Below the pieces are notes generated by a model. That model saw nothing but the letters and a program-made list of their open reading frames with translations, made no database searches and had not been told where the DNA came from. From Nematopogon swammerdamellus (Eukaryota; Arthropoda; Insecta; Lepidoptera; Adelidae): 64,000 bases of DNA. Below are positions 9,235 through 51,300 of the stretch, piece by piece (position 1 is the stretch's first letter; each line of letters opens with the position of its first letter). The stretch is taken from assembly GCA_946902875.1 (NCBI GenBank), contig OX336340.1:22335566-22399565 (forward strand), read 5' to 3'. A program made the translations under genes and the position numbers.

Positions 9235-9362
9235 ATGAATTTGGCGGTGAGGAAAATGTTGGTGGAGGGACCCGAGGCGCCTCGGCCCAAGGGTTCCTTC
9301 ACATATGTCAGCGCGCCGAGAGCCCTCTACAACAACACCAAGCTGAGGATGAATCCGCCATG
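9235..9362 (+). CDS. RSPH3: RSPH3 exon 1 (coding part)
   Basis: Starts at ATG 9235 and encodes 42 codons plus two bases; it carries the family signature [10 protein letters not shown]. Donor is TG|GTGAGT at 9363. It leaves two bases of a codon, which the first base of exon 2 completes as TGC (Cys). The spacer between PRAL and the YSNMM motif of exon 2 is 20 residues, the same as I count in vertebrate RSPH3, so no exon seems to be missing between them. Confidence 0.9.
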
Positions 9363-15300: not shown

Positions 15301-18300
15301 GTGTTTTCCCTCCAGTTCAGTGTAGCCGACATGAAATAAAGGGAAGCACTGACATGGTACCTAGTTCACCCGGTGTTATGGGCTGACATCACGGATGTTG
15401 TAGGTGATGTAACAAACCGTGTCAGTTTCCATAAAAAAAAATAACATATGTGACTACTACGACCGTTAAACTCTGGAACGATCTCCCTGCCTATATATTG
15501 CCCCCCGAGTACAGTCTCGGATCCTTCAAGAGCGTCGTGAATGGGCGCCTGTCAGGCATTCGAAATTCCCACTTACTACCTAATTTCCATGGGCGTCGTT
15601 CGTTAGGCATCTTAAGGGTGGCAGAGGCCACATGTCGCGCTTAAAATAAAATAAAAACTGGCCAAGTGTGAGTCATTTTCGCGCATGGAGGTTTCCGCAC
15701 CACAAAAAAAATGTTGAGAAACACGTTTCTTGCATGAGGATCGCCCTTTTTTTGCACATTTAACATTTTATAATATGTGTGTGTTAAATCCGCCAAAATA
15801 ACACATATTCTGTGAAAATTTCAACCGACTAGCTATTACGAATCCAAAGATACAGCCATCGGAGACAGACGACGTTGTAGTCTTAGCAATAGGCTTCCGT
15901 AAGTGGTACGGAAACCTACAAATAAAAAAGTGTGAACCACGTTCACGCGGCGAGGGTCCTCCTCGCAATGTATGCATGTATGCTCCTCGGATATACTTAG
16001 GCTATCAAAAAGCCCCTATGACTATCAAAGAGTTTCAAGTGCTCGTTCATTGTCAGATTTAGATAAGATAAGCTTACTACGCGATAACCCGAAGCTTTCC
16101 CAACCGTAGTCACATAGCCGTGGTACTGTAGTCAGGCTGTATGGAGAGAATCACATTTGGAACGATATGCGTTGAAATCACGTGATTCTCAAAAGTGTAT
16201 TGAATCATTGACTTTTGCTAACAATCGACTGTTACGTTTTTGGTGGAACACTTTTGATTGACAAATGGGCGTAGAGCATTTATTAAACGAAACAGAAGAA
16301 AGAATCAATTCGAATTTCAAATGTTTGGTCTCTATTTAAATTAACACAATACTAACTTAAAATTGTAATTTTTACTTGCCTACTTACGATTTAAATTTAG
16401 AACGCTAAATTATATTTATTGAACGATATGTGCTGAGTTTATTAAAATTGATGATCTGTGAAGGTTTCGCTGACGTCAGACCACGTGTTTACTTGACCCA
16501 CTCATGTCCTGTCCGCTCCATTTACTGGCCGAACTATATACATGCATAACTAGGTGATAGATAACAGCTGTGCCTAACGACTTTCGGATACCTGAAACCG
16601 TGTCGAGATAGTCAGGTGCGCCGGTTCACATTCAAGGTCTACGATCTAAAGTTGGAATTTTTCGCCCCAATTTAAGTTCGTCTAGGTTGTTATTCACGCG
16701 TTTTAGTGTCCGACTGCCTACCGCTATTTAATATGGACGCTTGCGCGAAGGCCGAGTAATACAGGTACCGCATTGGTGGCGTCCCGCTTCGATAACGTCT
16801 GACGTGATGTATCGGCGTAATGTGAGTTAAGTCGTTTTGCGTTTGGAGGCAGTTCGGCCGCGTGCTAGACTGACCAGGGGCCGACGTCGGCTACAGTGAT
16901 CGTTAAGCCGCCCTACGACCCGCGTGCCGCCCTCCGCTCGCCTCGCAGCGTCACCGTACAAGCCGGCTAATAATATAATATGTTTCCACTTCTTCTACGT
17001 TTAACCATTGGCATTGAAATAAATTAATAGAGAAGCTCTAAAATAGACCACGTGGTCTCGTGCACCGACCGTTAACATGTCAACGCGAGTGCAGCCCGCG
17101 CCATGATGCCGCCGGTGTCGGAGCGTGCGGACGAGGTCGAGCAGGAAGCTTTCACCGTGCTCAACCATGATGGCGAGCAGCGTGACGACATCACGGTCGT
17201 CGTCGAGTTCAGCGTGCCGCCCGGCAAGAGCGTCAACGTCGTCAAGCCGCTGCAGCGACGCGAGGAGGACGGCAGGAACCATCTGAACAGCGCCAAGCGC
17301 GAGGTCGAGATGACGGCCCCGGCCGTCGGCCCGCAGACGATCCTCGACCCGAAATTCTCGCGCGCGCTCGACTTCAAGCTCCGCCGACTGAAAGAAAAGG
17401 AAGCGATCCAGCAGAACTTACGACGCCCTTCCAGGTTCCGGCCCAAGAACGGCCCCACAGCGGCTTCCGACTCCAATCTGAACCGCGGAGAGTCTCCGAC
17501 GAAGCGGATGAGCCGTTCGCAGCCGCACATCGTGCTGCCCGAGGAATGCGACGAGAAGGTGTCTCCCAAGATGGATTCTAGCCCATCCCCCAACCGGAGG
17601 AGTAAGCGAAACGCCTCTTTCATGAACGACCCGGGCGAGAAGCCACGCTTCGTGACCACGGTCAAGACAGGAAGGTTTTTGCTTCCCCCGCCGGAGGTCG
17701 CGAGCTTGCTAGGTTTGCACAATCTGTACCCTCCGGAGGAGCGGCAGATCTACTTTTACTCGAGCAAGCCGAAGGCGGTGCCATCTCGCTCGAAGGAACC
17801 TTCAGAGCAGGAGTCCAAGGTGAAGCCAGGGCTTAAGGAGCAGAAACGGTTGTGCGCCAACAACGCTTTCGGAGGAGTACGCTCGTTGATAGCTGGGATC
17901 GTCGGCATGAGAAGTCATATGAACCAGAGAGACCAGCACAAAGGGGAAGGCGAACTGGAGTAAGCGTACTCGTATTTTCGTCACAATCCAACCCCTTGTA
18001 GATCTAGTTTAATGTAGATATTTAAAATTAAAATAAAATTCCATTCCAATGATACTGATGAAACCAATGTCATTTGCAAGGATGAAACTGCCCGTTTCTC
18101 CAAGGCTACGTTTTTTTTTACCCACGTTGACGTGGTATGGCAGAGGACACGTGTAAGGCAAATCAATCGCACTGAATATAGCCCTTGAAAAAAATATTAT
18201 AAACACTATGGGAATAGGCAGACTCCAATGAACCGCTCTTATATTATGTATAATGTACTCTGCCGTGTACTGATTCTTATCTGCCACGCTACTGCATTCT

Positions 18301-21300
18301 TGAAAACTATGTTTGACGCAAAATTCAAGAAACCGTCTGTTTTTTGTCACTGATCGATAGCATGTGAATCCAAATCGTTTAGATTCAACCAAACGCGCGC
18401 AGCACAGTGAATATCGTAAGAGCATCACTCGAGTACGAAAAAAAACGAAATTGAAACTATAACTTCAGACTTAATTTTTATAGGCGACCATGTTTGAGCG
18501 TACTCTAGCATTACTGATAGCGAGCTGGCCCTAATAAATAGAGTTTCTACGGGCGACCGGCGACCGTGTAACGTACATCAATATATGAATATCCTTATAA
18601 CTCGGGAACCACTTTATCGATTTACATACGGTTCTTCACTTTTGCATTCTTTTGCAGTCACTTCTCAAGATGGTTTTAGGCTATAAATCATAAGATACAA
18701 TCATATGCGGTCTGAACTGTGAGCAAAAACACGTGAAGCGCAACCGCGGTCAAAAACTAGTAGGTAAATAATAAAAGATTTGCATGTTGTCGGCATGTTG
18801 TGTATTATTTTTTATTGTTAGAGTGTTTTCGTATTTGCATGAATGGCAGGAACCATAAATGGATACTTTTCTGGAACTGCAACACATGATAAAGTACTGA
18901 GATGCGAGCCACTACTGATGACATTAGTAAATGTACCCTTTCTGACATGTGGCTATTTGTCAACAGCGGCAGCAACGAGAACATTGCGCCTTACAGCAAC
19001 ATGATGCACGAGCGGCGCGTCGTACGCGGCAGCACCTACGCACACCCTCCCCAGGGGTCCGGCGCGGTGAGTAGCATTACTGTTAACCGACAGTGACAAC
19101 AGCAGCAACACCGGTGCCGCCATGCCGTGCGGCAACATGATGGACGAGCGGTACGTCGTCGCACGCGGCAGCACCTACGCACATCCTCCCCGGGTGCCCG
19201 GCGCGGTGAGTAGCATTACTGTTAACCGACAGTGGCAACAGCAGCAACACCGGTGCCGCCATGCCGTGCGGCAACATGATGGACGAGCGGTACGTCGTCG
19301 CACGCGGCAGCACCTACGCACATCCTCCCCAGGGGTCCGGCTCGGTGGGTAGCATTACTGTTAACCGACAGTGGCAACAGCAGCAAAACCGGTGCGGCCA
19401 TGCCGTGCGTGCGGCAACATGATGGACGAGCGGTACGTCGTACGCGGCAGCACCTACGCACATCCTCCCCGGGTGCCCGGCGCTGTGAGTAGCATTACTG
19501 TTAGTCGACAGCGGCAACGGCAGCAATACCGGTGCGGCCATGCCGTGCGTGCGGCAACATGATGGACGAGCGGTACGTCGTACGCGGCAGCACCTTGCAC
19601 ATCCTCCCCGGGTACCCGGCGCTGTGAGTAGCATTACTGTTAGCCGACAGCTGCAACGGCAGCAACACCGGTGCGGCCATGCCGTGCGTGCGGCAACATG
19701 ATGGTCGAGCGGCACGTCGTCGCACGCGGCAGCACCTACGCACATCCTCCCCGGGTGCCCGGCGCGGTGAGCATAGCATTACTGTTAGCCGACAGCGGCA
19801 ACGGCAGCAACACCGGTGCGGCCATGCCGTGCGTGCGGCAACATGATGGATGAGTGGTACGTCGTACGCGGCAGCACCTACGCACACCCTCCCCAGGGGT
19901 CCGGCGCGGTGAGTAGCATTACTGTTAACCGACAGTGGCAACAGCAGCAATACCGGTGCCGCCATGCCGTGCGGCAACATGATGGACGAGCGGCACGTCG
20001 TCGCACGCGGCAGCACCTACGCACATCCTCCCCGGGTGCCCGGCGCGGTGAGCATAGCATTACTGTTAGCCGACAGCAGCAACGGCAGCAACACCGGTGC
20101 GGCCATGCCATGCGTGCGGCAACATGATGGTCGAGCGGCACGTCGTCGCACGCGGCAGCACCTACGCACATCCTCCCCGGGTGCCCGGCGCGCTGAGCAT
20201 AGCATTACTGTTAGCCGACAGCGGCAACGGCAGCAACACCGGTGCGGCCATGCCGTGAGTGCGGCAACATGATGGACGAGTGGTACGTCGTACGCGGCAG
20301 CACCTACGCACACCCTCCCCAGGGGTCCGGCGCGGTGAGTAGCATTACTGTTAACCGACAGTGGCAACAGCAGCAACACCGGTGCCGCCATGCCGTGCGG
20401 CAATATGATGGACGAGCGGTACGTCGTCGCACGCGGCAGCATCTACGCACATCCTCCCCGGGTGCCCGGCGCGGTGAGTAGCATTACTGTTAGCCGACAG
20501 CGGCAACGGCAGCAACACCGGTGCGGCCATGCCGTGCGTGCGGCAACATGATGGACGAGTGGTACGTCGTACGCGGCAGCACCTACGCACACCCTCCCCA
20601 GGGGTCCGGCGCGGTGAGTAGCATTACTGTTAACCGACAGTGGCAACAGCAGCAACACCGGTGCCGCCATGCCGTGCGGCAATATTATGGACGAGCGGTA
20701 CGTCGTCGCACGCGGCAGCACCTACGCACATCCTCCCGGGTGTCCGGCGCGGTAAGCATAGCATTACTGTTAGCCGACAGCGGCAACGGCAGCAACACCG
20801 GTGCGGCCATGCCGTGCGTGCGGCAACATGATGGACGAGTGGTACGTCGTACGCGGCAGCACCTACGCACATCCTCGCCGGGTGCCCGGCGCGGTGAGTA
20901 GCATTACTGTTAACCGTCAGCGGCAACGGCAGCGTAAGCGGGAGCTCCAGTAACACTACGACATCTGGTGACAACTATGGAAAGCAGAACTCATGATCCC
21001 AGAACAAGAGCGCCAACTCTTTTGTGGCGTAATTCGGAATGGAAACAATCTCCGAATCCTCTTAACCTGGTGGTTACCCATAACTGTCATATTTAAACAA
21101 CAATAGCAATGTCGTTCGTTTCGTCAACTGCTCGTGCTTCGGCTGATTAATATATTTAATTCCCAGTTTACAAATTGCCTCCTTGTGAATTAACAACGTT
21201 CAAATTGCGTCTTGCGTACCGCGACCCGGTCACAATACGATGGCCGCTGTGATAAGAACCGTTTAGTTCTGAAATGCCGTAACCTACTGCTGGCTGGACG

Positions 21301-24300
21301 ACTGTTTGTGGAGTGGGTACATAATATTATGTACCCGTACGGCTACACAATAACGTACATATTCGTAGTCGATGAATGGCCCAACGCGACCCAGATAGGA
21401 TAGAGCTATTAACGTTTTAATTAATCCATCATTTCTTTATGTTGATACTTTAGAAAATGAGACTTTTCGAAGGAAGAATAAGAGAGTTTTTCTGTTTTTC
21501 TAATCTCAGATCGATCATGATTTTAATCTTATAGCAAATCACATACTAAGTAAGTACTTCAATCAGTTTCTTTAATGGTTCAGAATAAAAAATGAAACTG
21601 ATACCGAAATATTAAAGCTGATTAAGTGAAACACTTCGTAATTATTTTTATTAAATTTCTTAATTTTTTTTATATTTTCCTATTTACATTTTCACCAAAC
21701 ATGAAGGCCCAATTGAGCGTAGCAGGATTATCCTCTAATTGGCTATTGTTCTACTAATTTTAGTATTATCTCACTGATACGCAAGATGGAATATAGATTT
21801 CCGCGAGATAATCTTAAAACCACAGAGCATCAAATGCGCGCGCCCGCCCCTCCTAGAGGCGCCCTGAGCGCGATTTCTCTACAACGGCGTTGAAGCCTGT
21901 GGGCGTGGCCTATGACTTACATATGTGTGTTGTGCGTGTGCATTTGTTTTGTGCGTGTGCCTAACTTGCTCCTCTTTGTGTGTAGTGTCGATACTAGCAC
22001 ACACACACACACACATACGAAGCGCTAGCAGCACTGCGTGTAGTTTTTGTGTTTCAAATATTATCGCTTAGGGCGTCTCTAGTAGGGGGCGCGCGCGTTA
22101 GGTATTTGATGCTCTGTGCTTAAAAGTAAAGCTAGATCAGAGGATAGTTCTGCCATAGTTCAAACAGACAGTCTCATTTTACTATGGTTCTGCTACGCAC
22201 AATTGGGCCTAAGATGATGATAAAGTGAGTGTTGAGTGATGCCTATATCAGAATAATAATATTAAAATAATGTAAAACAAAAATATTATTAGAAACAGAA
22301 AATGTTTATTTACAGAAAAACACGCAACTCAACAATGCCTTAATCTATTTACAAATGTACACAACAGGGGCGAGGTACGAGCTAATGGTGGTAGGCCTGC
22401 GGCTGCTCGTGCTTGGAAGGCGCCGAGTTATGTACGACCGCGTTGAATCTGAAGCAAAGACGAATCATTAGTATCTGAAAAGCCTGATCCACACGTAGGC
22501 CGAACAAAACAAACAATTTTGTTTCACCTCCCTCTAATTGCTTAGTAAAAGCGGGATAAAACTATAAGGTTTTTCATTTTTTGGCCAATGTGTGGATAAA
22601 CCCTACGTGTGGACCGAGCCTCCACTGTCAAGATATACATCAATTCGGGATGTGGTTCTAGTACATAGTGCTAAATTAGAAGGAACATTAATCGTTCCCA
22701 ATCTAGACAAATTAAAACAAAATCAAATAATTTTAATGCTTTGAATTAAATAAAACTAGTCGGTGACCCCGAAGTGTCACGCGATTTAGTGCCCCGCGAT
22801 CTAGAACCACTGCAGCACCGAAGGGATGTCGGCTCCCTAAGTGTGTTCTATCGCTTATTCCATGGGGAGTGCTCAGAAGAGCACTCCCCATGGAATAAGC
22901 GATAGAACACGGAAACTGGAAAGGGGACGGCGGGATCGCGTTTAAACAGTTAAACGCGATCCCGCCGTCCCCTTTCCACCTCCGCACCACTAGGCACCTG
23001 ATGGTGAATAGGCACCTGTCCATGGCCGTCGTTAGACACCTCATGAGTGGCTCGGCGCCACACATCGCGCTTTCTATTTCAAAAAATCGGTTAGACGGTC
23101 TAAAAAAATCGGTCAGCTATACAAATAAGTCATATTTTTTATCCAGCAGGTTCGTCCATATTGAATCACGGCATGGAACTCAGTTGCAACGGAAAGCTGA
23201 TGTTATTGGTTTACAAATCGTAAATATAACTAATGCTGTAACGAGCCCTATGAAATATACAATAGTAGAGAAAATGGTGAATGACATCATGAAGTACACA
23301 AACAAAGCGCAAGTTCTACACTCACCCATTATGCTTGTCAGCGGTGTACTCCACAGTCCTGATGGATCCGTCAGCCTCGTGCAGGGAGTACACTCCCTTC
23401 ACCACGTCGCCGTCGCGAGACTCTTCCTGGTACTTGTTGTCGCCGGTGTGCGGGTCCGACACCTTGTACTGGAACTCGTACTTGGGGTGGCTCTGGGAGC
23501 AACAATAAAATTGTGGTCAACGATAAAACATGATTGTCTATGGAAAATGGAAATATATTTATATTCCATTCTTGAGAAAAATTGGTTCCGCTAAGGAAGC
23601 AGAAGCCTCGGAAGGATCAAAAACCGGTCAAGTGCGAGTCGGACTCGCACACCTAGGTTTGCGCACCACAAAAAAAAATTTTGAAAAAAAAACATGTTCC
23701 TAGTCTGTATCCTTAATTTTTGACCTTTTTCTATATTTTATTCTGTGGTAACACATATTCTGTGAAAATTTCAACCGGCTACCTATTACGGTTCCAAATA
23801 TACAGCAATAGGACAGACAGACAGTCAGACGGACATACAGGCAGACAGACGGCGTAGGCTTAGTAATAGGCTTCCGTACGGGATACGGAAACCTAAAAAG
23901 GACATCAAGTTGAATTGGAGTTGAATCGGAAAAATGTTGAATGCCTGAAAACTGCAAAGGTCCCTTGAGCTTTGCCACAGCAACCTATAGAAACATAGGT
24001 ACACCAGAAAGATGGCACCTACTATAGAGATATTAATATTGAACCAATTCGTGCATAGGTGCATATAATATAAGCCACAAGGAGAGTTCACTCACATAGT
24101 ATTCCTCGTGATCGTGGGGTGCCTCGCCGGGAACATCGTGGCGCTGGATAGCCTGGGAGGACACGGCCTGGCCATGGCCAGAGCTGTGGCCCTGCTGGAT
24201 ACCATGGAGCTGAGGAGCCGCCACGTAGTGCGCTACCGGCACGGCGACCTTCGTGAGGACCGGGACGACGTATTTGTGGACATTGCCGTGTCCGAGATGG

Positions 24301-27300
24301 TTGCCACCGCCGTGGCTGGATTGCTGGTCGTGGCTGGCATGCTGGTCGTGTCTGGTGATGCTCTGGGAGGAGTAAGCCTGCCCATGTCCATGTCCGTGCT
24401 CCTGGCCGGAGACCACCGCCAGGACTAGCGCGAGGGATGCGAGCTGGAAGCAGAAGGGTTTCAGTTGCTTAATTTGATCAAGAACGCAAAATTTTGGCAA
24501 TATAGTACTGAAGGAAATACATATTTTAATATGGTATTACATTTTAGTATTATTATTTTTGGTAGTTTTAGTTCTATATTGTATGACAAATAGTCGTATC
24601 TTTACATTCTATACATTTTAGTAGGTATTAAATTTCGTGAGTAATTTTATTTCGAAAAATAAATAAATTTACGTTAAAAAAAATTATATTTGTGATTGTT
24701 TTAATTTTTTTAATTGAAAGTGCAACATGTCGCTCCGCCCCATCCTAAGGTGCCTAACGACGCCCATGGATATTCGGACGTATGCGGAGGTTGCGAATGC
24801 CAAGGCGGCCTGACAGGTGCCTATTCACTCCCTCTTGAAGGACCCGAGACTGTACTTGGGAAAAAATATATGGGCAAATAGAGGGATGGTTTTCTGTGAT
24901 TTTTTGGATCCTTAAAATAATAAATAAACTAATGAATTAATAATTATATCCTACAGTGACACAGATATTGAGTAGAAAATTCGATACAAAATATATTTTT
25001 TACTCTATGCAAATTTTTTTTGTTTTGTGATTTTTCGTTTAGTTTAATAGGAAGTACAGTGTGATCTTAAAAATGTTCTATAACCAATTTGTAGGTACCT
25101 TAAAGAACATTTTGCAGTTTATGTGCTGGCTGTTGACACGAGAGGTGCAAGAGAACTGATGCATTGCCGAGTACGGGCAGCAGTTTTTATAGCTCTCAAA
25201 TCACACGTGGGTATATTGTGATTAAGCCTACAACCGGTCGGCGCCGGTGCACTGTTATTCAACACTGCCAAAAATTCGTAGCAACAAGAAATGGGCCAGT
25301 GAATGTGCACCAGATGCAGAGCTTGTCTCGTTCGGAAGCTGCGGTTCAAGGTAGCTCGCTTCTGGATCAAGTTTTCTGCAAGTGTAGAAAATTAATGAGT
25401 TGCCTGTCCGGTGCGGTGAGTGCGTAATTTTGGTGCGACAAGTCAGCAACTAATTAAAAATAAATAAATAAAATTTAAAACTCGCCTTTCGACTCTTTCG
25501 TGAGACGATTAATATTTTTTTAAGGTTCCGTATGCATACGGAAGCCTATTACTCTATTACCTATTATTATAAGCCTGTGTCTGTCTGTCTGTCTATCTGT
25601 CTGTCCGCCCGTCTATCTGAGGGCTGTAATCGTTTGAACCGCAATAGGTAGCCGGTTGAAATTTTCACAGAATATGTGTTATTATAGCGGATATGCCAAC
25701 AAATCAAAGCAAAAAGTAAAAAATGTAGGAGCCCCCCATACAAAAAACGTGCTAAGAATCGACTAGGACATATTCACGCTACTAAATAATAAATGGGGCC
25801 ACAGGCAGTTAGCATTGCAGACAGACAAAAGACAGACGAATATGTTTTTTTGACAAGTATGGTATAGCGAATCTTTTTTTTTATGGAAACTGACATGTTT
25901 GGCTACATCACCCACGGAACCCTCCGTGCGTGAGTAAACTCGCGCATGGCCGATTTTTCGTATTCAGTTGTTTGAAAATTATAAAACCGGCCTGTTACAT
26001 AATGAGTTTGTGGTGTTTGTATGTTTGTATATACAGGTTGTTCGGCACATCGACTGACAATTTTTATAGGTAAGTGGGGTCATTTGCAACGTTCTGACTC
26101 ATGACACCTTTTGTCAGATGTCACGTGGTATCGAGATACGATTTTTTTTTCTTTATTTTTGAAAATTTCCAAACTCCCAGCTTTAAACCGTTGTAACTTT
26201 ATAACCCTTGTTTATAATTTGTATCAGCACGAAATAAAATTTATTGAATTTTACGATGTATCCCTGTTCTAGAAAATATTATTTGATTAAGTTAATACCA
26301 TGAAAAGGTCTTATGACCTCCCAAAGTCCCGAGAACGAGTAAAAATATGACAGAATCTTAATTTCTTAATTGATTTTAAAAAAAGCTGACAGCAATTGAT
26401 AGCTTCATTTTCTTTTATAAATTCGCTAGTTTACGCCCTTTCCAACGGTATTCCACATGTCATACAAATAAATTCATTATGTGGTCAAAATTAGGGATAA
26501 TTTGAAAGAGTCTAAACATTAACAATGGAGAATTGAACAAAGTGCCCGCGCGACCGGTACGTGTTCTAAATTTGAAAATGCTCCCGAAAACGTTTTACAG
26601 TTAAAAGCCCTAAAAATAAATTTAAAAAAACAGCAGACCTTTTCACTTATCCAAGAGCTTACCTTGTTGACAGGTATTCTTCTATTATCGGTCAGTTTCT
26701 ATGAATTCTTTATCCTTCTACTATTTGTGAAGTTCCACGTACTTCGTCGGTGCCTCGCGGTGCTGGGCAATTGTAGTTGTCATTAACTGCTGAAACATTA
26801 ACGAAGACAAAGTATCGTTGTTGATGGAGTGGATGCACTTTGGACAATTAAATGCAATTTGTGAACCCATTTCTGTAATTTCTCTAATTTCTTATCGCGT
26901 GTGGCCCGGTAATTGAAAATAATAGGCCCACTGGATCTCTCCCCGTGCATTTCCACCACCGCACCACGCGCACTGGGCAGTGATTGCATCCCTACACGCT
27001 GGACTACCGCGGTTGCGTACCAATAGATTCTGCAGATCTTTCCTCTACAGAACCGGTAAACTCTGGAACGCTCTCCCTGCTCATATATTTCCCCCCAAGT
27101 ACAGTCTCGGGTCCTTCAAGAGGGCCGTGAATGGGAACCTGTCAGGCCGGCATGGCACTCGCAACCCCCGCATACGACCGAATGTCCATGGGCGCCGTTG
27201 GACACCTCATGGGTGCTTCGGCGCCATATGTCGAGCTTAAAATTTAAAAAAATATCATACAAGGCACTAAGGGATAAGGACAAGATGCTGCCGTGCCAAA

Positions 27301-30300
27301 GGGCGCCCCAAGGATATAGCCACCTCTCACCTTGGCGGGGTCATTCCACCCACAGGAATGCGTTGAACGCGCACAGTGTTCGTCCTTAGACGTGGGCATC
27401 TTCTGGACCTTATATTCGGGATGAAAGCTATTAATTCACGACGTCGGTTTTTTTTATAGAAAACGCGACATGTGACGCCGAGCCACCTATAAGGTGTCTA
27501 ACGACGCCCGGTCATTCAGTCGTACGTGGAGGTTCCGAATGTTGTATGCACAAAAGAACAAGTACGCACAATAAATTAATTACGATGATAAAATTATAAA
27601 ACTTTATATATTATTATATTCTATATATATATATAAATATTTTAATATAATAATTAATTTATGTGCCACACAGATAGGCACTTATACATTTTATATATTT
27701 TTTTTGTTATATTAAAGTTGCCTTTTTTTATTTGGTACTTACACAATTTAATACACTTGATAATAATAAAAAAATAAGCTGCCTGAAAAATTATTTAGAA
27801 ACAAATAAATATAATTACTTTTAAATAGTCGTCATATCATCACTTGAATTGGTCGAGTAGGCGCATAAAATGAGAATATTTATTGATTTTCCGTGAGCTC
27901 GCCATTCAACGTTATTTATGAAGAAAGTGAAGATATAATGGCAAAAGCATCGCCTGTCAACCCTCACGGTCAAGGGCGGGGCGGGCTCCGGTGGCGGGTT
28001 CAGGCTTGCGGGCAGAAGGTTAAGTTTCCGAGCACACTTTCCTGACTTGGTGAGGAACATCTCTATCTCTATCTTCTATATCTATATCTCCTCTATCTCT
28101 ACCTCTATCTCTATCTTCTATATCTCTATCTCCTCTATCTCTACCTCTATCTCTATCTTCTCTATCTCTATCTCCTCTACTCTGCCTCTATCTCTATCTT
28201 CTCTATCTCTATCTTCTCTATCTTATCTATCTCTATCTCTATTATCTCTATCTTATCTATCTCTACCTTCTTCTCTATCTCTACCTCTATCTCTATCTTC
28301 TCTATCTCTATCTTCTCTATCTTATCTATCTCTATCTCTATCATCTCTATCTTATCTATCTCTACCTTCTTCTCTATCTCTATCTCTATCTTCTTCTCTA
28401 TCTCTATATCTATCTCTATCTTCTTCTCTATCTCTATCTCTATCTATATCTCTATCTTCTTCTCTATCTCTATCTATATCTTATCTCTATCTCTATCTCT
28501 ACTTTTTATAAAGAGAACGTCTGTCTGTATGTATGTTTGAAGTAAACTCAGGAACCACTGAACATATTTTGATGCGGTTTGCACCAATGGAAAGAGTAGT
28601 TCTTGAGGCTCACTTGACTATATACCATCACGCTAAATAGCCTTAGGACTGAGAAGTATAAAAGAAAGGTGGACAGGAGAAACCTAGTAAGGGGCAAGCG
28701 AAGGGACCTACAGTTTTACACCGGTTCCGAACGGTGAAGCATCAGGTTTAGGTATGCACGTAAATTTTTCGCACGGATTCAAACATCGGACCTCTCGCAT
28801 GAGAAGCCGATGCCCAAACCACTCGGCCACCAGAGCTTATTGTTTTAATATACACGGTGTTGCAACCCCAACCGTAAAAGCCGAAATGGGGAGATTCTGT
28901 ACGTGAAATAGAACCACTTTGGTTCTACGACTTTTTTATTTGAAGAAAAAAAAATTTTAAATAGGTATTTAAAATTTGTATTGAATTTTTTTTTTTTTTT
29001 ACATTTTTTTTCTTCACAGAAGTTCTTTAGTTTCACACATAGAATAACCCCCTTATGTCAGTTAAAAATATTACGAGGGCAACTGCAACACCGTGTATAT
29101 TATTAAAATTTAATTAGCACGAAATTGCTGATGGATCTGCTGGTTTTATTTGTGTACTGTTACGAATAGTCGAATACTTTTCTTATCTATGGATAAACAC
29201 CCAGTATTGCATAAATATTTCCTAAAGCACAACTCTTTAATGACCAACCTACAAGTAGCATATAATATGTACCTTCATTGGATTATGTCCTAACATTGCA
29301 GTGCACCGAAACTCTGATCTAGATGTTGTAAAGCATTACCAAACTCTTTCCATAATATATATCAGTCGATCTAATAAGAATGTAATTAACGAGAAATTGA
29401 CAGTGGACAATATTGTATGCATTGATCAACCAAACATTAGATATTCGACACACATACTTCAAAAGCGGACCACATATTTTATTTGTACAGGCTGATTTTA
29501 TTACTATGACGAATATTTCAGGTGAATAGTCTGTACGGAAAACGAAGTAGTTTAAACAGCAGTAAGTAGTAAGTAGACCGCATTCGTCACTGTCAGACTC
29601 CTGGCACATTCAAAATCCTGCTGAAGTAACATTATCTTAGCAGTTGCTCTGTTGTGGAATAAGGTATTATGTATGTATTTTATGTTATTTTTATTATTAT
29701 ATACTGTATCTACAGTGGGTGGCCAAATTATTAGACTCACCACACTTAATGTCATAGTTATCAATACAAATTTGCTCTTGGGAAAAAAAATTCCACCTCC
29801 TAAACCTTTGAACCTAAACTATTCCAACTAGGTATTTTTTATTACTGATATATTTGGCATACACCTACGTTACCATTTTCAACCTATGAACATCGACTTA
29901 ACTTAGAGACAAAGTAGAAAATCGAAATGTTTTAATTCTATACATAAATTATTTAAATGATATGAAAATAAATAATCGGTATTTATAAATTTGTCTCTAA
30001 GTTAAGCCGACTTTCATTGTATTAAGGTGTAAATGTAGGTTTATGGCAAATATATCAGTAATAAAAAATACCTATTTGCAATAGTTGAGGTTCAAAGGTT
30101 TAGGAGGTGGAATTTTTTTTCCCAAGAGCAAATTTGTATTGATAACTATCACATTAAGTGTGGTGAGTCTAATAATTTGGCCACCCACTGTATGTACTGA
30201 TATGTATATTTATATTTATATAAGCATGTATTTATTTGTTTATGTATATATTTGTATAAGTATGTATTATAATATTACTTTCCAGTCCAAATGTCTGCAC

Positions 30301-36300: not shown

Positions 36301-39300
36301 GCCTAGCCAGCAATCCAGGAAAGTCTCCGGTATGGCACCTACCTTCTCGGAGGTGATATTGGCTAGTCCGAGCTTGTGCTTTGGCCCCTCTAACTCAGAC
36401 ACCCATACCGGATTACATAAAAAAAATATATATATATATAAGCAACTCCTATGCAAAATTTCATGCTTCTACAACATCGGTTCAGGAAGTAGACTAACTT
36501 TTTGCACGCGGCTTCGCTCGCGACATTGTAGGTTATGCTAATTTGAGTCGACGCAATATATTCTCTCTCTCTCTCTCGCTCTCTCTCCCTTTCTGTCTCC
36601 TTCCCTTCCTCCCTCCATCTCTCCTAATACTCCTAAATAGGTATTTATATACTAAATGATGATGGTGTACATTACTGTACTTACGGTACAATCATTATTA
36701 AAAACACCTCCCATTGTGTGTACTATACTTTCATACGCCCTTGTTATGGCAAAACTGAGTTTTAAATCATTACCGATTACGAAATATGAGGCTATGTGGC
36801 TATCTGACGTATGTGGCTATATGACGTCTATGGCTGTATTGCGTATGTCGCTATAATATGGCGTAGACAGACAATCTACTTAAAAGTATCCAAGCACAAC
36901 TTCGTGTATTAGTGCTCCAGGCTAGTAAAGCAGACGTTGTTCAGCTCAAAACTATTATTTTCTTTATTATTTAGCTATTACTTAGTAATACGTAACCTGG
37001 TCAGAACTAAGTCAATATTTCTTCATACTTCAAATTTAAAGAGTACCTATCTACTATGTACTTCACCGCTAGTCGGTGATATCTTTGTGTTCCCGAAGAA
37101 AATGAAAGCACTTCTTGACGATTCGAGGAAACATCTTAAATATTCAATGATCAACATTCACAGTACATCTTGTGATTTCGGTGTCTAGGCCTGAACTGAA
37201 AACAATATTTACAAAAACAAACTAAGACAAGATCAAACGACTCATTCCAAACATTAGAAAATCCTTCTTAAAATTTTGAAAAGTATAAATTGACTCTATG
37301 GCAAAAGTATAAAATCTCGCTCTGGCTAACTGCCAGTGCAGTACATACAGTCCGCGCGCGAGCTCCGAGGAATCGGTATTTGTGGAAATTAATTTATTAT
37401 AGAATTTGTATAGAATTTTTATGGAGATTCACATTTTGTGATGATTATACTATACTAGGCGAGTAATATTATACAAATGTATAATAATAAAATTCTATAC
37501 AAATTCTATAATAAATTAATTTCCACAAATACCGATTCCTCGGAGCTCGCGCGCGGACTGTACATACATACGTATATCGTTGAACTGCGCGGGATCACTA
37601 GGTTATTGATTTTGATGGTGTCATGTGTTTCAGATTCTTTTGTTAATGATGATTGTTGACGATATCCAGATAAGATAAAATTAGATAACAGCTGTCGATA
37701 CAGCGTAGATAGAAGTAGCAGTTTTTGAATACTTTCTCGAAGACAGCAAAGCCGAGCTGTTTTTTATTAAACCAGCAGCTACAATAGGGTGGCAGAAACT
37801 TTAGTTGCCATCCTATACATTAATACTAATAATAAATCCTTAAGGGATGGTCATAGAGTAACTTACTTTGTTTTATAAGATACTGCGTTTGTAGACTCTA
37901 TGTATGATTCTAAAACTAAATTGACGATTTTTAGAAATATTTTCTATATGTATGCATGTTCCTCCATAACTCTTAAGCCGATCATCCGAATTCGAAGAAA
38001 CTTAATAAAAGCACATTTAACTGTACGCGACACAGGATAGGCTAAATGAAATTCAGTTCTGGTTACGTTAAGACACCGAGCGTTAAGATGTGGACCTCAT
38101 ACAAACCGCATTGTTTCGCGCGCCGAAATAGAGGTACGGTAACGGGCTTACTTACTTTCTTCTATTTAAATACTAATTTCACGCGAGCGAGCCGCGAACG
38201 AGAGATGGTAAAAGAAATATTTTGGGAATCGACCTTGAACTTTAGAAGTGATGAGCGTTTTTGTGTCGCGACTCGGGCCTTTTTGCGTTTTACGTATATT
38301 ATGTAGGTATTGACAAGGGGTACCTATTGCTTGATTCATAATGTTGATGATGCTGATGACATCCAATTCAAATTCAAATTCAAAATTATTTATTTTTCAA
38401 TTCCCTTATTAATAACATATACAATCTTTATACAATATACATGTTGTGAATTGAAAAAAAAAAGGTGTAGGCGCATGTGGCACTGGCATTTCAGTGCCGC
38501 TGATTTTAAGCCTAACCTTGTAGGTACCTGACTAAAAACCCAAAAGTGACAATAATGTAAGTGAAAGGTAGGTAAAAAAGAAGAAAGGATAGGCGATGTG
38601 TTAAAAATATGAATTGATAGTGTTGAATAATGCTGTTGTGTGAAGGTAGTAGGTGAGAGTATTTATTGAATAAGATAATAAAATTAATAGATTTAGTGGT
38701 TGATGGTCTTCTGTAATTGTAACAGGCAACGAATTAAAATTATCGGGAATAATCGTGGCATACAACGCACCGAATTGAGGCGCGCTATTTGTGAGCATTC
38801 AGCACACTCTCCAATCGTTGTCTCCCTTATTTATACGTATCCAATTTACATTTAACCATCTTACTCTATCGACGTTCACAGAGCGGAAACGTAACGTGAT
38901 GTATGAGGCGCTCGCGCACTTACACTGTTTTAAATATTGGCAATATATAGAAGAACTCCAATCGCACCTTTCTACCGGTAAAATGTATAACGAGGGCCTG
39001 TCCAGAAAGTAGAATGTCGTTGGTAACGTGTTTTTTTTATAATGTTTTGAAGGTTAGTATTTTTCATCAATAATAATGTATTGTGTAATAATTGACTATG
39101 TATGTATTGTGTCTCCAGGGTGATGCTGAGACTGCAGCAGCGCGCGCCGCGCGCACTCGCCGGAGAGCGCTCGCGAAACGCGCGGCGGCCGCGCGGCTCC
39201 GGCCGGGCACTCCGCCGCCCGCACCCGGCCGTAAACACCACCCCATACAGACGGAGTACTATCTGGAGGAGGTAAGCTTCTATCAATACGTCTCAATGGA

Positions 39301-42300
39301 TAACTAAATTACGTGTTTATGCGTGATTTGCGTCATTTCGCTCGCGGAAAACTTTTAAAATTATTCATCACATTTGCTAAGTAGAACACTTTTTAACTTG
39401 CAACGACTAATGAGTTTTTAAAATTGTTATTTTTATTCTTATTTCTTATTCAAATACAGTTACAGATACATATTTATTTCGTCCCAAAGAACACGCAATA
39501 TTTAACAATATTTCATTGACACAAATAGGTATGTCTTCAGCATGGATTCGTCATAAATTTTCTTTTGCTCTTCTTTAACAGTCTATGATGTCATGACATG
39601 ATCCACTGTAGGACGTAGTACGCCATATGGGAACAATGTTATCAAAGTATGGCAATAAAAAAGTTTCTTCAAATTAACTAAATATTCTAATTTGTACCTA
39701 CAGAGACGTAGATATTGAGTAGAATGTATGTATACCCTGCGCCGAACAGTTTTGAAGTGACCGTTCAATTAGGTTAGTATATGTATGTATATTATATTAT
39801 TCCGTGTATCATTGGGCATTGTGTCATTAATTTATACTCGGAATCTCGGTATTCAATCATAATAATTTTTTTATTTAATAAAATTTTATTAATTTGGCTG
39901 TAACTGGATTTAGGAAAGTTATGAATTGGCATAGTGGCAAATCTATTTATTAAACACCACTTTACTGTTGAACTATTTGTGCATTCGCTTCAATGAAAAT
40001 ATATCTAGAAGAACTGGTACAAGGTTGTTCGTGCAAAGTGGAACACTCAACTTTGACCGGCCTAGTTCCCTAACCTGCAGTATATTCTTTTTAAGTGGAA
40101 GGCAAACTTTTCTTGTGCAAACATACGTATTCTAAATTGTGTTAGTTTTACGGGTGTAGGTACGATAGGAGCGTTATTTTCTGATTTACATATTAAGGTC
40201 ACTTCCCTGAATTTATTTCACTCTTAAATTATGTTAATATTCTGCTTATTGCGTTTATTTAACTAAATAAAAACTAAGCTTAGAATGGATTAGAAAATGC
40301 TTTATTCCACCAAGAAACATTCAACAGTATCAAGCACATTACAACATTTACATAAGGTGCAAAGGCGGACTTATCCTTTACAGAGATAATAAAAACAAAA
40401 GTTTATTTGTAGTTAAGAAACCTACAGTCAGTCAGTCAGTCAGTCAGTCAGTCAGCGTGTAAGCGTCCACTGCTGGACATACCCTCCCCAATTTTCCTCC
40501 AGTCCTCCCGGCCTTCAGCGGTACGGAACCACTGCTTTCCGCCGACGTACTTGATGTCGTCGTCCCACCTGGCGGGTGGTCTTCCCACACTCCGTTTTCC
40601 AGTTACTCCAACGGTCGTCGTCTCTTCGCCTAACGTGCCCAGCCCACTGCCACTTGAGCTTAGCCACCCGGTGTCCAATATCGATTACTTTGGTGCGTCG
40701 GCGGATTGCCCCGTTACGCACCATATCACGTAGCGATATTCCCAGCATGGCTCGCTCCATTGCTCGTTGGGCAACTTTCAACCTTTGGACAACAGCGACC
40801 GTCAGTGTCCAAGTTTCACACCCGTACGTCATAACCGGGAGGACACACGGGTCTTTAAATTTTGTGGAAGGTCAGACCTCAGGGCGAATTTTAACTTTCC
40901 GAAGGCAGCCCAACCCAGTTGAATTCGTCTCTCGACCTCCTTAAGCAAACCTTGTCTACCAAACCGCAGAATTTGACCGAGATATACGTACTCTTCAATC
41001 TGTTCGATCACTTCTCCGCCAATAACAATTTGTCCTCCCATCATCACAAGCTCGGTCGCCATGACCTTGGTTTTGTCCCGGAAGAAACCTACGGAGAGGA
41101 ATAAATTAATAATAAAATTAAATATTAAGCCGCCGATGTCGCGCCTACCTCCCCGGAGGTGATATTGGCTGGTCGGAGCATGTGCTTTGGCCACCCTGAC
41201 AAACTCTTAACATGAACAATACAGAAGAAACGCTTTCTAAATTACTCGTGTATTTGATTGCAGCTATTCGACAAAGGTGTAGAGATGGAGATAGGAGTTC
41301 AGACAGATCTGTTCCTGGACAGGCCGGCAACTCCGCTCTACGTGCCCGCGAAGACCGGAATGGACGCTTCTACGCAGATTTATCCGGGAGAGGTGACAGA
41401 ATCAATCTTGACTTTCTTTCGAAACTTTCATCTCTGGAACCTGGCTGGTACACAGTTCAGGATTCGGAGATGTTGAATGTCACTATTCTATCATCATTCA
41501 TCACATTAGCTTTAACCCTTCAATTTATTATAATTTTGTTTTATTTGTTCAAAGAAATCTACAGCAATATTGTTAAAAATTTTACAATATGGAATATACG
41601 TACGAGCATAATTTTAGCTAACAAAAGACTTTATCAACATAAAGTATTTCAAGTACCGTGTGGGGCCGGTACTTAAAAAGAATAGCCCAACTGCATCTCT
41701 CCCCGTGCATGTCGTAAGAAGCGACTAAGGGCTAAGGGATAAGGACAAGATACTGCGCTAAAGGGCGACAGGCTAGCCACTTCTCACCTTGGCGCAGTCC
41801 TTCCACGTAGTCATGCAGCAGGTGGGTTCTTCATGCCTTACTTGCTGCTTGATACTTGTCTTGTCCGTATACTGTGCTAAACGTGGTGGTCGGTGTTGTG
41901 CTGTAATTTACCAGAGTCCTTATAGCACAACACCGATTACTCTGCTTACCCTGATTGTCGGGATACAGCGTGTGTTATGTATGTATGTATGTAAGTATTT
42001 CAATAATAATGTAATTATTTTTTCCGACATCCATCATGCCAACAGTTAAGTTAAATTAAGATAAATAAAATTAAATAATGTTAAATGTCTACCTATCTTT
42101 TACACACTAGTATTTAAAAACGCATAAAATAGTAATAACAGATTACACAATAGAAATCAAAAATCAATGTGAGATCAATCTAGTATTGTTGTATTGTTTA
42201 TTGATCATTCATATGGCAGTTAGACTGCGCTCGAACTTGTCACAATTGGTTCTATCTTAATTTGTTTGTATCACAATTTGTTCTATCTAAATTAATTTGT

Positions 42301-45300
42301 CTTATCTTTGATTCTATTCACTACCAGCTAACACTATGTATGTTCAAATTATTCCATTCCCTCGTTTATCTCTTTTTCAAAAACAACAGAATCTTACCAA
42401 TCCACATATCGCTCCCGTTAAGAAGATGACGAAATGTTCTAGGCATCATGTTATAATAATTTGTCTTTGGAAATATTTATTTTTATTTTTTATTTATTTA
42501 TTTATTTATTTCGGAAATACAAACAAAATAGCAAGAAAAAGAGAAATTAATTAAGGTAATAATATAGCGATTACACAATATGCTACTTCAGCTACGTATT
42601 TCACATATTTAACTTAAATTATAGAACGAGAAAAAAAAATACTAATGTGTCAGTGGACTTCATAATCAAGAACACTTAGAGGAGAAAATAAAATGTATAT
42701 ATATATTTATATAGGTAGGTAGGTTTGTGATTCACAGCCAATGTTCACAGCAAACAAGTGTGCCATCCCGATCGCACACATTACAATCTGTCTTAATAAT
42801 GATTATGTATGATGCATTAAATAGTATAGTACAGTTATTGGTTAGGGGGGCTTGGGACCAAAGCAAAATAAAACAACATTGACAGGACGGACTTGATATG
42901 TACATAATATATAATGCGAATGTGTGCGGATTTAAGATAATAATATAATAAATAAGTTATGCACAATATTCGCGATGTCAGCCCATACCACAGTGAGTAC
43001 GCCACGGTGCTGTAGTGCCATGTCAGTGCGACCCACAGTCGCAGGTTATTTAGATATTAAGCTAAAATACTTACATATACTAAAAACATAATTATAAAAT
43101 ACAAGTACAAACTATAATATTAGTTCCTACACATTGTATTGACTCTAGACAGAAAGTATACACAAAATAGCTTTCTTAAATTGGTATGACGTCATGAAGA
43201 AGATGTCCACATCCGCATCCGAATCACTGAGTTTAGTGTTGTATGTATTGCACATGCGCCAGATCGGCATACGGAATCCTGAGTTGGTTCTACAGAGTTC
43301 CAAGTGGAAGAGATGGGTGTTTCTGGTCGAGCGTGACGGAACCCGTAAACCTATTTGATTAAGTAAATCAGGACAGTCTATTAAGTCGTTTACTATTTTA
43401 AATAAGAATGACATGTCAAGTAATAAACGTCTATTATGGAGACTTGGTAATGAGAAATGTTCTAAGTGTAACTCATACGAAAGCGAACGCCTGAACATGC
43501 GACGATGTAGTATTTTTAGGAATATGCGCTGGATTCTTTCAACTGATTGCGAGTATTTATTGTAAAAGGGATTCCAAACTGGTGTCGCGTATTCGAGTTG
43601 TGACCGGACTAGTGTCTTATATAGTAGAAGATAGGTCGAAACTCTTTTAAACTGACGAGCCGTGCGAAGTACAAATCCCATCATCATATATGCACGATTA
43701 GTTATGCTATCGACGTGTTTATCAAAATGTAGTTTAGTGTCAAATAACACACCAAGATCCCTAATAACCTCAACACGTTCTAATAAGGCACCACCAATGT
43801 GGTAATTAAAGTAGATTGGGTGTTTTTTCTTAGTAAAGGTAATGACCTTGCATTTCGAGAGACTTAAGAATAATTTGTTTTGATTACAGTAGGTGTAGAA
43901 AGAATCTAAATCAATCTGGAGTGCCTCACAATCTTCGTTAGAACGTATTTTGGCATAAATTTTCATGTCATCAGCATATATAAGAACTTTACTGTAGCGA
44001 AAATTATGAATGACATCGTTGATGAATAAAATAAATAGAAATGGGCCCAGGATGGACCCTTGGGGCACGCCAGAGGATACTGTGATGTAGTCCGAACAAT
44101 AACCATTGACAACTACGCGCTGCTTTCTATTAGATATATATGAAGAGAACCATCTCAACAAATTTCCTTTTATACCATTAAAGGAGATTTTTTTGAGGAG
44201 AAGCTCATGGTCCACCTTATCGAAAGCCTTTTGAAAATCAGTGTAAATAGAGTCGACCTGCTCACCATCGTCCAGGCTGTGAAATATAAAATTGGAATAA
44301 ATAGTTAGGTTAGTGATGGTCGAACGTCGTTCAACGAAGCCATGCTGTTGTGATAGAATTTGATCATGATATATTGGATAGATAGCCTGATGTACCAACC
44401 TTTCAAAAAGCTTCGACAAGGCGGACAATATAGATATAGGTCTGTAATTTTTAACTTCATTCTTGCAACCACTTTTAAAAACTGGTGTGACATTGGCGAT
44501 TTTCCAAACATCAGGGAACACTCCCTCTAAGATGCATTTATTGAAAATAATATACAATGGGCAGGCAATAGTATCGGCAACTGCAACCAGGAAGAAGGGC
44601 TCAATTAGGTCAGGGCCAGCACCCTTATTTATGTCTAAATTTTTAATTTCTCTAAGGATTATGTCCGAACTGAAGTGCAGAGAGTGCAAAGAAATGTTAT
44701 TTAACGCGGTCTCGGTGGGCTCCACCCACGAATCAAGGTCTAGTGACGACGGTTCATAAACGGATTTAAAAAAGTCAGAAAACATATAGCATATTTCATT
44801 AGGATTATTTGTAGTCTCGTTTCCATTTTTTAATGTAGCTGGATATGAGCTCTCCTTACGACGGTCCGACACGTATGACCAGAAACACTTAATATTAGTA
44901 GCTATTCCATTTTCAAGCCGAGAGATGTACTCCTTGTAGCAATCGGCGGACGCTTTCTTGAACCTTTTACGAATTTCAGAGAAAGCTACGTAATCAGAGA
45001 TGTTCCCATATTTTTTATATTTAACCCAAGCCTTAGTTTTACATTTGTATAGCTTAAGAAGGTCGGGTGTAAACCAAGAGGCGCATTTCCTTTGTTTTTT
45101 ACTCTGAGTGGTACGTGTGTCCTTATGATATTATACAGTCTGTCATAGAAGAAGTCAACCGCACTTACTGCGGATTGCAGAGACAGCTCACCTGACCAAT
45201 CTACGTCGGCTATCGCTGAGTTAACTTCAGTATAATTTGCATTGCGAAATTTGAAACGTGGAGCCGGATAGCGATCCATTGACGTTTCCAGCGCAGCGTG

Positions 45301-48300: not shown

Positions 48301-51300
48301 CAACACTGCGTTATCAATATCACAATCACGTCTATATCGTCTATAATAGGGGTTGAATTTTTATATATTTACAAGCACTAGGACCGCCAAAACTTTGCGG
48401 TTCGAACAATATAAGTCTGGTAGGCTATAAATCGCTTTTGACAGGCTTTTGAGTTTTTTCAATTCGGAGCTCGTAAATACGTGACAGCACGAACTGAGCA
48501 CGTTTGCTGACATTGCTGACATTTGGTAGATCCTTCCAGACCATGGCGAAATGGACCGACAGTCGTCACAATTGTTACCTGACGTAATCATTGGTGTCAG
48601 TACTGCAATGTTTGTTTTGTAAATATTTGCAGCTGTTCGACTTCGACATAGAAGTGCAGCCGATCGTGGAGGTGCTGGTCGGAAAGACGACGGAGCAGGC
48701 TCTGTCGGAGGTGGCGCAGGAGGAGGAGCTGGCGACGCTGAGGGAGCAGCAACAGCGCTTCCTGGAGCTGAGAGACGCGGAGCGCGCGGAGAGACAACGG
48801 CTCGCCGAGCAGGATAGGAGACTCGAGGCTGAGAAGGTGAGTCAGGGGTGGTCAGGACGGGACGTGACTGGAATGGGGTGGGGTCGAGTCGTGGAAGGGA
48901 TGCGAACTGATTGACAACGGGCGAGTGTTCGATGTCTTTTTTTATGTAATCCTGTATGGGTGGTTGAGTCGGAGGGGCCAAAGCACATGCTCCGACCAGC
49001 CAATATCACCTCCGAGAAGGTAGGTTCTATACGAGAGACTACCCTGGACAAGTTGCCTATCGTTGGCAAGGTCAGGGCCCGATTTACCAATAGGCTAATT
49101 AGGCTATAGCCTAGGGCGCTGGATTTTAGGGGCGCATCATAGGGCGGCGGCGCCGGCGGCGCGGAGGTATGGCGGCGGCGGCGCGGAGGCAGCGGCGGCG
49201 TAGCGGGCGGCAGCGCGGGCGCAGTCAATTCGACTGTGTGTTTTTGACATTGAAAATATCTTTTCGTTCGTTCCAGTTTAGGCCCTGATTTCACGAAAAA
49301 GTGCGATCCCCTTATATCTCGGAGAGTTGTGAAGATATGATATTCAAAAAAGGCTCAAAAGACGCGTATTCGTGTCATGAGAGCTGTAAGGTTCAAAAAG
49401 AATTATTTTAATATATATATTATATATATTAAAATATATATTAAATTATATATTATATATTTTTTATTATTAAAAATAATAAAAAATATATAAATGTAAC
49501 ATTTTATTTTTATTTTGTTGAATTTATTTTCAATGCCCCGCATCTTCTAACCTAACCTATATTGCTATATCCAACGAGCCCAAATATGGTGGATTTATCA
49601 TGTGTAGTTTAGGAGTTCCTATGGCTTCCTTCCGGCTCCATCATCAGGTCCCTGGAAATAACATATGACTAGAGTACCTACTTGCGAAGACAAATCCAAC
49701 GAGCCCAAACACGATGGGCTTATCATGTGTTGTTTAGGAGTTCCTATGGCTTCCTTCCGGCTCCATCATCAGAACCCAACTAACCTTTTACTTATCCCGA
49801 CTTTCTCGTGTCGCTCAGCGACAATATTTTTTCGAATTCCGTAGATTAATTTTCAATTTGCTCGATAGTCGTGTAAAGCACGAAATCTGTGATTTCTTTT
49901 TTATTAGTTTATTACAAACATTTGTTTCCGAAATAATATTCCTCGGCGCTGGCTAGGGGGCGCTATGAAATCTGAGCCTAGGGCGAGCAGGACCCTGAAT
50001 CGGGCCCTGGGCAAGGTGCCTTAGATGGATGCCTGAGAAGGGGTGGGTCGAGTCGAAGGCGGGTCGTGGTCCAGTAGGAACAGACCTGGGATGGTTTGGG
50101 TCGGATCGAACACGGTTCGATGTCCAGTAGGAACAGGACTAGGAATGGGTCGGTCAGACCCTGGCTGAATGGGCGGGGCCAGTGTCAGGGCGGAACAGGT
50201 CGGGGACGGGATAGGACGGGTCGAATTCGGGTGGGTCGGTTCGGGTACAAGCCAAATGTTTGACGATGAAAGAGCTCAATGTTTTTTCCAGGAGAGGCGA
50301 TTGGCGGAGGCTCGTGCGGCCCGCGTGACCGCCGTGGAGAGCAAGGAGCGCGCCGCGGCCGCCACCCTGGTCCAAGGATACCTTGCGGACCTCCTGCCCT
50401 CCGTGCTTGCGAACCTGCGCGACCAAGGCTACCTGCAGGAGCGGACAGAATACAGTCTGTATTGTTTTATAGAATCTGACATTATGGAACATGACAAGCA
50501 TGACAAGGTCGGCCGTTACTACGCCCGTGATGTCAACCAATCATACCTTATTCCTTTTGCAACTAGGTACGATGCCAGCTTTTCCCTTTGGTCGTGCATA
50601 AGTCTCCACAGTTAGAAATTAGACCATAGTAGGTAGGTATTATTTCCCAAATCGAAGAAGTATCAAAGACAGCAGTGTAACATTGCCCCAGCCTTTTTGA
50701 GGGGTAGAAATGTATCGCTCTGTAAACTTTGTAAATTTTGTCAAGCTCTAACACGGTTGACCAAAACACCTGCTGCCGCAGAGTACATATACGTACTATT
50801 CATTACACAACTGCATTCTAGAGGAAACTAGTCACCATATCAGGTTATTTTCGGTCGTTTGTGCTGGCTACACTGAAGTTGATGAAAACACTAGACTAAC
50901 ACCAGTAGTGAAAAGAACAGATTGCTAAAGAATGATGTATTGCAGGCGTGGAAGAGGACTTCCTGCCGTGGCTGACGGAGGCTGTGTCGGTCGAGGTAGA
51001 GTCCATCATCACCAGTCGAGACGTCATCACAGGTAATCCGTCTGACTACCTCTTGGGCATCACGGGTTCGTCTTTGAGCACTGCTATTCCCTGTAATACG
51101 TATATCATAATAAACAAAGTTTCTACGGGCGACCGTGTAACGTACGTCAATCAATATATGAATATCGTTATAACTCGAGAACTGCTTTATCGTATTACGT
51201 ACGGTTTTCACTGTTACATTATGTCATTTCTCAATATGGTTTTAGGCTATAAGTCATACATAACGCTACGTCATCGCCGGCCTGAGCTGTGAGCAAAAAG

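Follow-up and report, generated by a model that had tools for sequence, protein, structure and literature searches.

A probable intronic minisatellite derived from a coding exon of RSPH3 and its splice donor in Nematopogon swammerdamellus

Exon 2 of the radial spoke protein gene RSPH3 is followed, in the stretch of 64,000 nucleotides that we analyzed (the window), by 13 additional exon 2-like units, each carrying the start of the next intron. We consider it most probable, at roughly 0.82, that this array is a non-coding intronic minisatellite which was born from the exon and is spliced out together with intron 2. The normal transcript would then run from exon 1a or exon 1b to exon 2 and on to exon 3, with the array leaving as part of the 20-kb intron 2, and exon 2 would stay under selection while now and then swapping sequence with the array. 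The positions of all features are collected in Table 1.

Table 1. Features of the RSPH3 locus and of the exon 2-derived array, in window coordinates.
Feature	Position	Strand	Remarks
RSPH3 exon 1a	9235..9362	+	ATG; ends in phase 2; donor gtgagt; protein homologues
RSPH3 exon 1b, alternative first coding exon (predicted)	17103..17959	+	ends in phase 2; donor gtaagc
RSPH3 exon 2 (U1)	18967..19066	+	100 nt; motif NMMHERRVVRGSTYA
CGGCAGC at exon 2 start, proposed left microhomology	18967..18973	+	sequence; role inferred
Intron 2, first 27 nt	19067..19093	+	donor to first AG
13 extra exon 2-like units (U2-U14) with intron starts	19094..20933	+	up to array end
U2, exon-like part	19094..19205	+	frame intact between AG and donor; motif read in frame
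U3, exon-like part	19233..19344	+	frame intact between AG and donor; motif read in frame
Three-unit block in two copies, U6-U8 and U9-U11	19651..20500	+	97.4% identical
U8, exon-like part	19936..20047	+	frame intact between AG and donor; motif read in frame
U11, exon-like part	20362..20473	+	frame intact between AG and donor; motif read in frame
CGGCAGC at array end/start of single-copy intron, proposed right microhomology	20927..20933	+	sequence; role inferred
RSPH3 exon 3	39119..39271	+	phase 0
RSPH3 exon 4	41264..41392	+	
RSPH3 exon 5	48633..48836	+	
RSPH3 exon 6, 5' part	50292..50459	+	3' junction: see text

The PF06098 domain that identifies an RSPH3/RSP3 gene is encoded by exons of the window: three exon-level matches passed the Radial_spoke_3 cut-off of 26.4, with 95.2, 49.4 and 29.5 bits. 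The protein joined from these exons matched RSPH3 chains of known structure (best E 2.1e-73). Its closest protein matches were the lepidopteran RSPH3 sequences of Plodia (76% identity), Helicoverpa (76%) and Galleria (75%), which by themselves point to a moth or butterfly as the most likely host. Altogether, 162 homologues were found with the whole joined protein. The exon and the donor at the head of the array belong to this gene, and exon 2 itself has kept its frame, its splice sites and its motif. Exon 1b, predicted within intron 1 and absent from the earlier note, joins exon 2 in frame and ends in the same phase as exon 1a. An N-terminus resembling it was recognized by eye in four lepidopteran models (P0009, P0012, P0013 and P0031); no Pfam family was found for 17103-17959. 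At the other end of the gene, there was no convincing exon 6 donor among the GT patterns listed for 50292-51000 (plus strand). The following exon, with FLPWL near 50963, is not part of the joined protein; the 3' junction of exon 6 is provisional or unusual.

Other repeats and open frames lie in the introns and beyond. Intron 4 contains frames of a LINE-like element on the minus strand (43145-48086), one with an RVT_1 reverse transcriptase, a middle one with no Pfam match, and one with a PHD finger and Baculo_FP_2nd. Intron 2 contains a histidine-rich open frame of 155 amino acids on the minus strand (24033-24500), also with no Pfam match. In addition, 28059-28501 is occupied by a long array of ATCTCT type, and 52698-53145 by a 242-bp unit present 1.9 times at 93%.

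Tandem Repeats Finder placed the array at 18996-20933, with a period of 139, 13.8 copies and 89% matches, and reported higher-order periods of 279 and 426. Fourteen anchors, spaced 136-145 bp apart, correspond to exon 2 and 13 extra units, which form head-to-tail copies at the very start of intron 2. Every unit is followed by the same intron-start sequence that follows exon 2, extending for 27-29 nt from the donor to the next AG. Cut at the preceding AG, the exon-like parts of the 13 extra units measure 111-116 nt, compared with 100 nt for exon 2. The unit core differs from exon 2 by a mean of 0.097 per site, and units U2-U14 are 90-99% alike in pairwise comparison. Adjacent homologous copies of an exon within its own gene amount to a tandem exon duplication, and head-to-tail units that fall into classes and were amplified in blocks are what is expected of a minisatellite. 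A search of the 699-Mb, 39-contig assembly with exon 2 recovered 12 of the 13 extra copies among the matches listed, at 82-94% identity (U11 was absent there). In two genome searches, in which the best candidates were scored so that counts are lower bounds, the unit was found solely at the RSPH3 locus, and we therefore rejected an origin from a satellite or a dispersed repeat. The earlier note had described a tandem amplification of the RSPH3 exon, complete with donor and the beginning of the following intron, and had counted 13 extra units. The repeat, anchor and identity analyses bear out the amplification, and the anchors bear out the count.

The ends of the array suggest how it may have arisen. 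Exon 2 begins with CGGCAGCAAC, and the lead of U14 reads CGGCAACGGCAGCAAC; past the last unit comes CAGCGGCAACGGCAGC, after which the repeat ends. We propose that the array was founded by a tandem duplication between two CGGCAGC copies, one opening exon 2 and the other lying in intron 2. Such an event would explain why the lead starts and the array ends as they do. By fusing intron 2 with the beginning of exon 2, it would have carried along the exon and its donor and left behind the intron 1 acceptor region. One segment does not follow from this model and counts against it: between CGGCAGCAAC and GCAACATG, exon 2 and the units show 0.45 differences per site over the aligned lead. In order to find a source of the lead, the leads of U2 and U14 were compared with the window by short-word BLAST, dropping hits that started inside 18990-20945. 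No match longer than 11 bases was obtained, and one of the matches was the 10-mer CGGCAGCAAC, with which exon 2 opens. When the leads of U2, U3, U8 and U14 were each aligned globally with the 5' part of exon 2, between 0.6 and 3.9% of 5000 shuffles aligned as well. Judged by these alignments, the unit lead likely descends from the 5' end of exon 2.

After its founding, the array grew block-wise. Apart from the duplicated three-unit block of Table 1, the two-unit blocks U7-U8, U10-U11 and U12-U13 are 97.2% identical pair by pair. Unequal crossing-over may later have spread both single units and multi-unit blocks. Exon 2 seems to have taken part in the traffic as well. Over the 3' half of exon 2 and the beginning of the intron, U7, U10 and U12 have 76 bases identical to those of exon 2, and they differ from it in the motif just upstream. 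This mosaic of shared and differing sequence suggests exchange between exon 2 and the array, in either direction. A short repeat (AHVPHVPHGPHVAHAHA) directly after the same motif was also noticed in the RSPH3 model P0008 of Parnassius mnemosyne; going by this repeat, the 3' half of the exon may be repeat-prone in Lepidoptera.

Exchange leads to a further reading, in which the array serves as a reservoir of variants for exon 2. Gene conversion with the adjoining coding exon would then change the region of the N-terminal motif of RSPH3 faster than point mutation, and some of the in-frame units U2, U3, U8 and U11 would perhaps be spliced at a low level, for example in testis, giving rise to RSPH3 forms with an altered motif. 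We regard this reading as very unlikely.

The splice sites and reading frames of the units bear on whether any of them could serve as exons. Of the 13 extra units, 12 retain the donor GT and U9 shows CT instead; in 8/13 the donor reads gtgagta as in exon 2. This retention counts against a non-coding minisatellite. An AG precedes each copy, but it consists of intron 2 sequence, 27-29 nt past the previous donor. The 20 positions before the AG contain 10 pyrimidines in exon 2 and in each of the three units measured (U2-U4), with longest runs of 3 and 2, respectively; by pyrimidine content, the AGs of these units thus look no weaker, another point against that reading. Joined to exon 1a and exons 3-5 via the nearest AG, five of the 13 units (U2, U3, U5, U8 and U11) end in phase 0 with no stop. 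In U5, the motif region is read in another frame, so that the motif is in frame in just four units. These four open, in-phase units also count against a non-coding minisatellite. Among the others, U7 and U10 contain stops, and U4, U6, U9, U12, U13 and U14 end in the wrong phase, U9 being also the unit that lost its donor GT. Long minus-strand open reading frames in the array are taken as products of the GC-rich repeat.

Mutually exclusive splicing could make use of such units: one of exon 2, U2, U3, U8 and U11 (perhaps also U5) would be chosen between exon 1a or 1b and exon 3, the other units being dead. The four units enter in phase 2, leave in phase 0, and have open frames, GT donors and an AG. 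The gaps between units fit too, since 27-29 nt is below intron size and gaps too short to serve as introns would enforce the choice of one exon. However, 9/13 units fail through a motif out of frame, a stop, a wrong phase or a lost donor, whereas copies used in this way should preserve the reading frame, which was found in 4/13 (5/13 counting U5). The branch point would also have to come from the upstream unit.

Mutually exclusive exons should in addition keep conserved residues, and the units were compared with the homologues in this respect. From the 162 homologues, 120 were listed, and a pattern that fixes the neighbors in the motif but leaves the tested arginine free kept 100 of them. Arginine occupied the tested position in all 100, and the spacing of the motif was uninterrupted in all 100. 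In the 13 units, the same position is always tyrosine or histidine. A stricter pattern retained 68/120 homologues, all with arginine. The 20 homologues set aside include many fragments or models without exon 2 and a few that depart from the motif, such as P0117, with KLMHGRLRRGSN as its nearest stretch; the pattern used found a one-residue insertion in none of the 20. Read in the motif frame, seven extra units have VVARG, with an inserted alanine, and in four EW replaces ER; U5 and U13 carry 1-nt deletions. The earlier note had every unit reading NMM.ERxVVRGSTYA, which does not hold: a literal match was found in U4 alone, a unit that is out of frame from its own nearest AG, the tested arginine is lost throughout, and a residue is inserted in 7/13. 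All four in-frame units carry the inserted residue. In the Chlamydomonas chain 7jtk_E, the motif occupies residues 40-54.

In order to look for coding constraint, we compared variation among the parts of the units. Among U2-U14, variation was spread evenly: the pairwise difference per site came to 0.068 for the lead, 0.064 for the exon core and 0.048 for the intron-derived part, and 8/42, 16/74 and 6/27 columns of these parts varied (p 0.93), counting columns with 7 or more letters. By codon position, 4/23, 5/24 and 7/24 columns varied (third position versus the rest, p 0.38). Synonymous changes accounted for 6/16 changes among units (0.375), compared with 0.26 expected when transitions are weighted twofold, a slight excess toward constraint in small numbers; in the other two frames, 4/15 and 5/15 were synonymous (28% and 32% expected). 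Between exon 2 and the unit consensus, the core shows 6 non-synonymous changes and 1 synonymous change. Frame-breaking indels in the exon-like part comprise 4 nt in the lead and 1 nt in each of U5 and U13. Taken from these comparisons, the units appear to be under no clear coding constraint. A search of the protein database with the stretch encoded by the array gave two candidates that shared words and none with E <= 1; the native exon 2 stretch, run as a control, gave no match either, although the whole protein has its many homologues, and the negative result for the array is therefore uninformative.

The lost arginine, the inserted residue and the lack of a clear sign of constraint add to the case against mutually exclusive exons, which we consider very improbable. 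They also bear on the proposal in the earlier note of an expanded coding-exon array that changes spoke docking. With the conserved arginine in 0/13 units and the motif not read in frame in 9/13 from the nearest AG, this proposal is unsupported; the constraint tests and the intron 2 origin of the AGs before the copies lend it no support either.

The retained donors could instead act as a splicing decoy, an idea to which we give the same very small chance. The 12 GT donors behind exon 2 would compete for U1 snRNP and shift the splicing of exon 2; use of a downstream donor with the exon 2 acceptor would run into a stop and lower RSPH3 output. Both the kept donors and the reading past the exon 2 donor, which meets a stop at the tenth codon, agree with this idea, but copying as recent as the similarity of the units indicates predicts GT retention as well. 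Least likely of all is an assembly artefact that inflated or invented copies: tandem arrays are prone to assembly error and the copy number could be off, but diagnostic substitutions and indels separate the units in a structured way, the window contains no N, and 1.9 kb is short relative to usual long reads.

If the array is a non-coding minisatellite, as we favor, its effect on the RSPH3 protein is most likely none, as far as the DNA tells, and radial spoke biology is most likely unchanged by it. PMC4901443 describes the N-terminus of RSP3 as anchoring the spoke in the axoneme. The NMM.ERxVVRGSTYA motif itself may do this anchoring; no statement on where the motif sits in the spoke was found in passages of PMC8789290 and PMC12399478. 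The interest of the locus lies elsewhere. Here a coding exon with its splice donor has clearly given rise to a probable minisatellite, and this founder apparently remains in use beside it. The locus is thus a possible system for studying how cells single out one exon from a dozen similar copies. The array could also show the rate at which sequence is written back into a coding exon. For annotation it carries a warning, as gene finders could call false exons in it.

Several known systems resemble parts of this arrangement. Ordinary intronic minisatellites grow by unequal crossing-over, and the RSPH3 array shares with them unit classes, higher-order blocks and mosaic copies; it differs in that its unit derives from an exon of the host gene itself, a founder that is still coding and lies next to the array. 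Turri reportedly described a minisatellite with multiple splice donors in 1995, and the gene is said to be human 6-16. It too is a tandem repeat in a gene with units carrying splice donors, but its donors, going by the title, serve a transcript, whereas the RSPH3 unit spans about 140 bp with nearly the whole exon, and its donors may go unused. Among the literature matches listed, with subscription papers mostly outside, none on RSPH3 exon duplication or exon-derived arrays described this array. Tandem exon duplication is well described (PMC9013439), and tandem exon duplications and arrays of mutually exclusive exons such as those of Dscam are treated in PMC9013439, PMC3228551 and PMC1397879. 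Like such arrays, the RSPH3 array consists of adjoining homologous copies of one coding exon within a gene; unlike them, it fails to keep the frame in 9/13 copies and, to judge by its sequence, has the native acceptor region in no copy. The RSPH3 array is a fresh instance of a known phenomenon, with an unusually clear founder exon.
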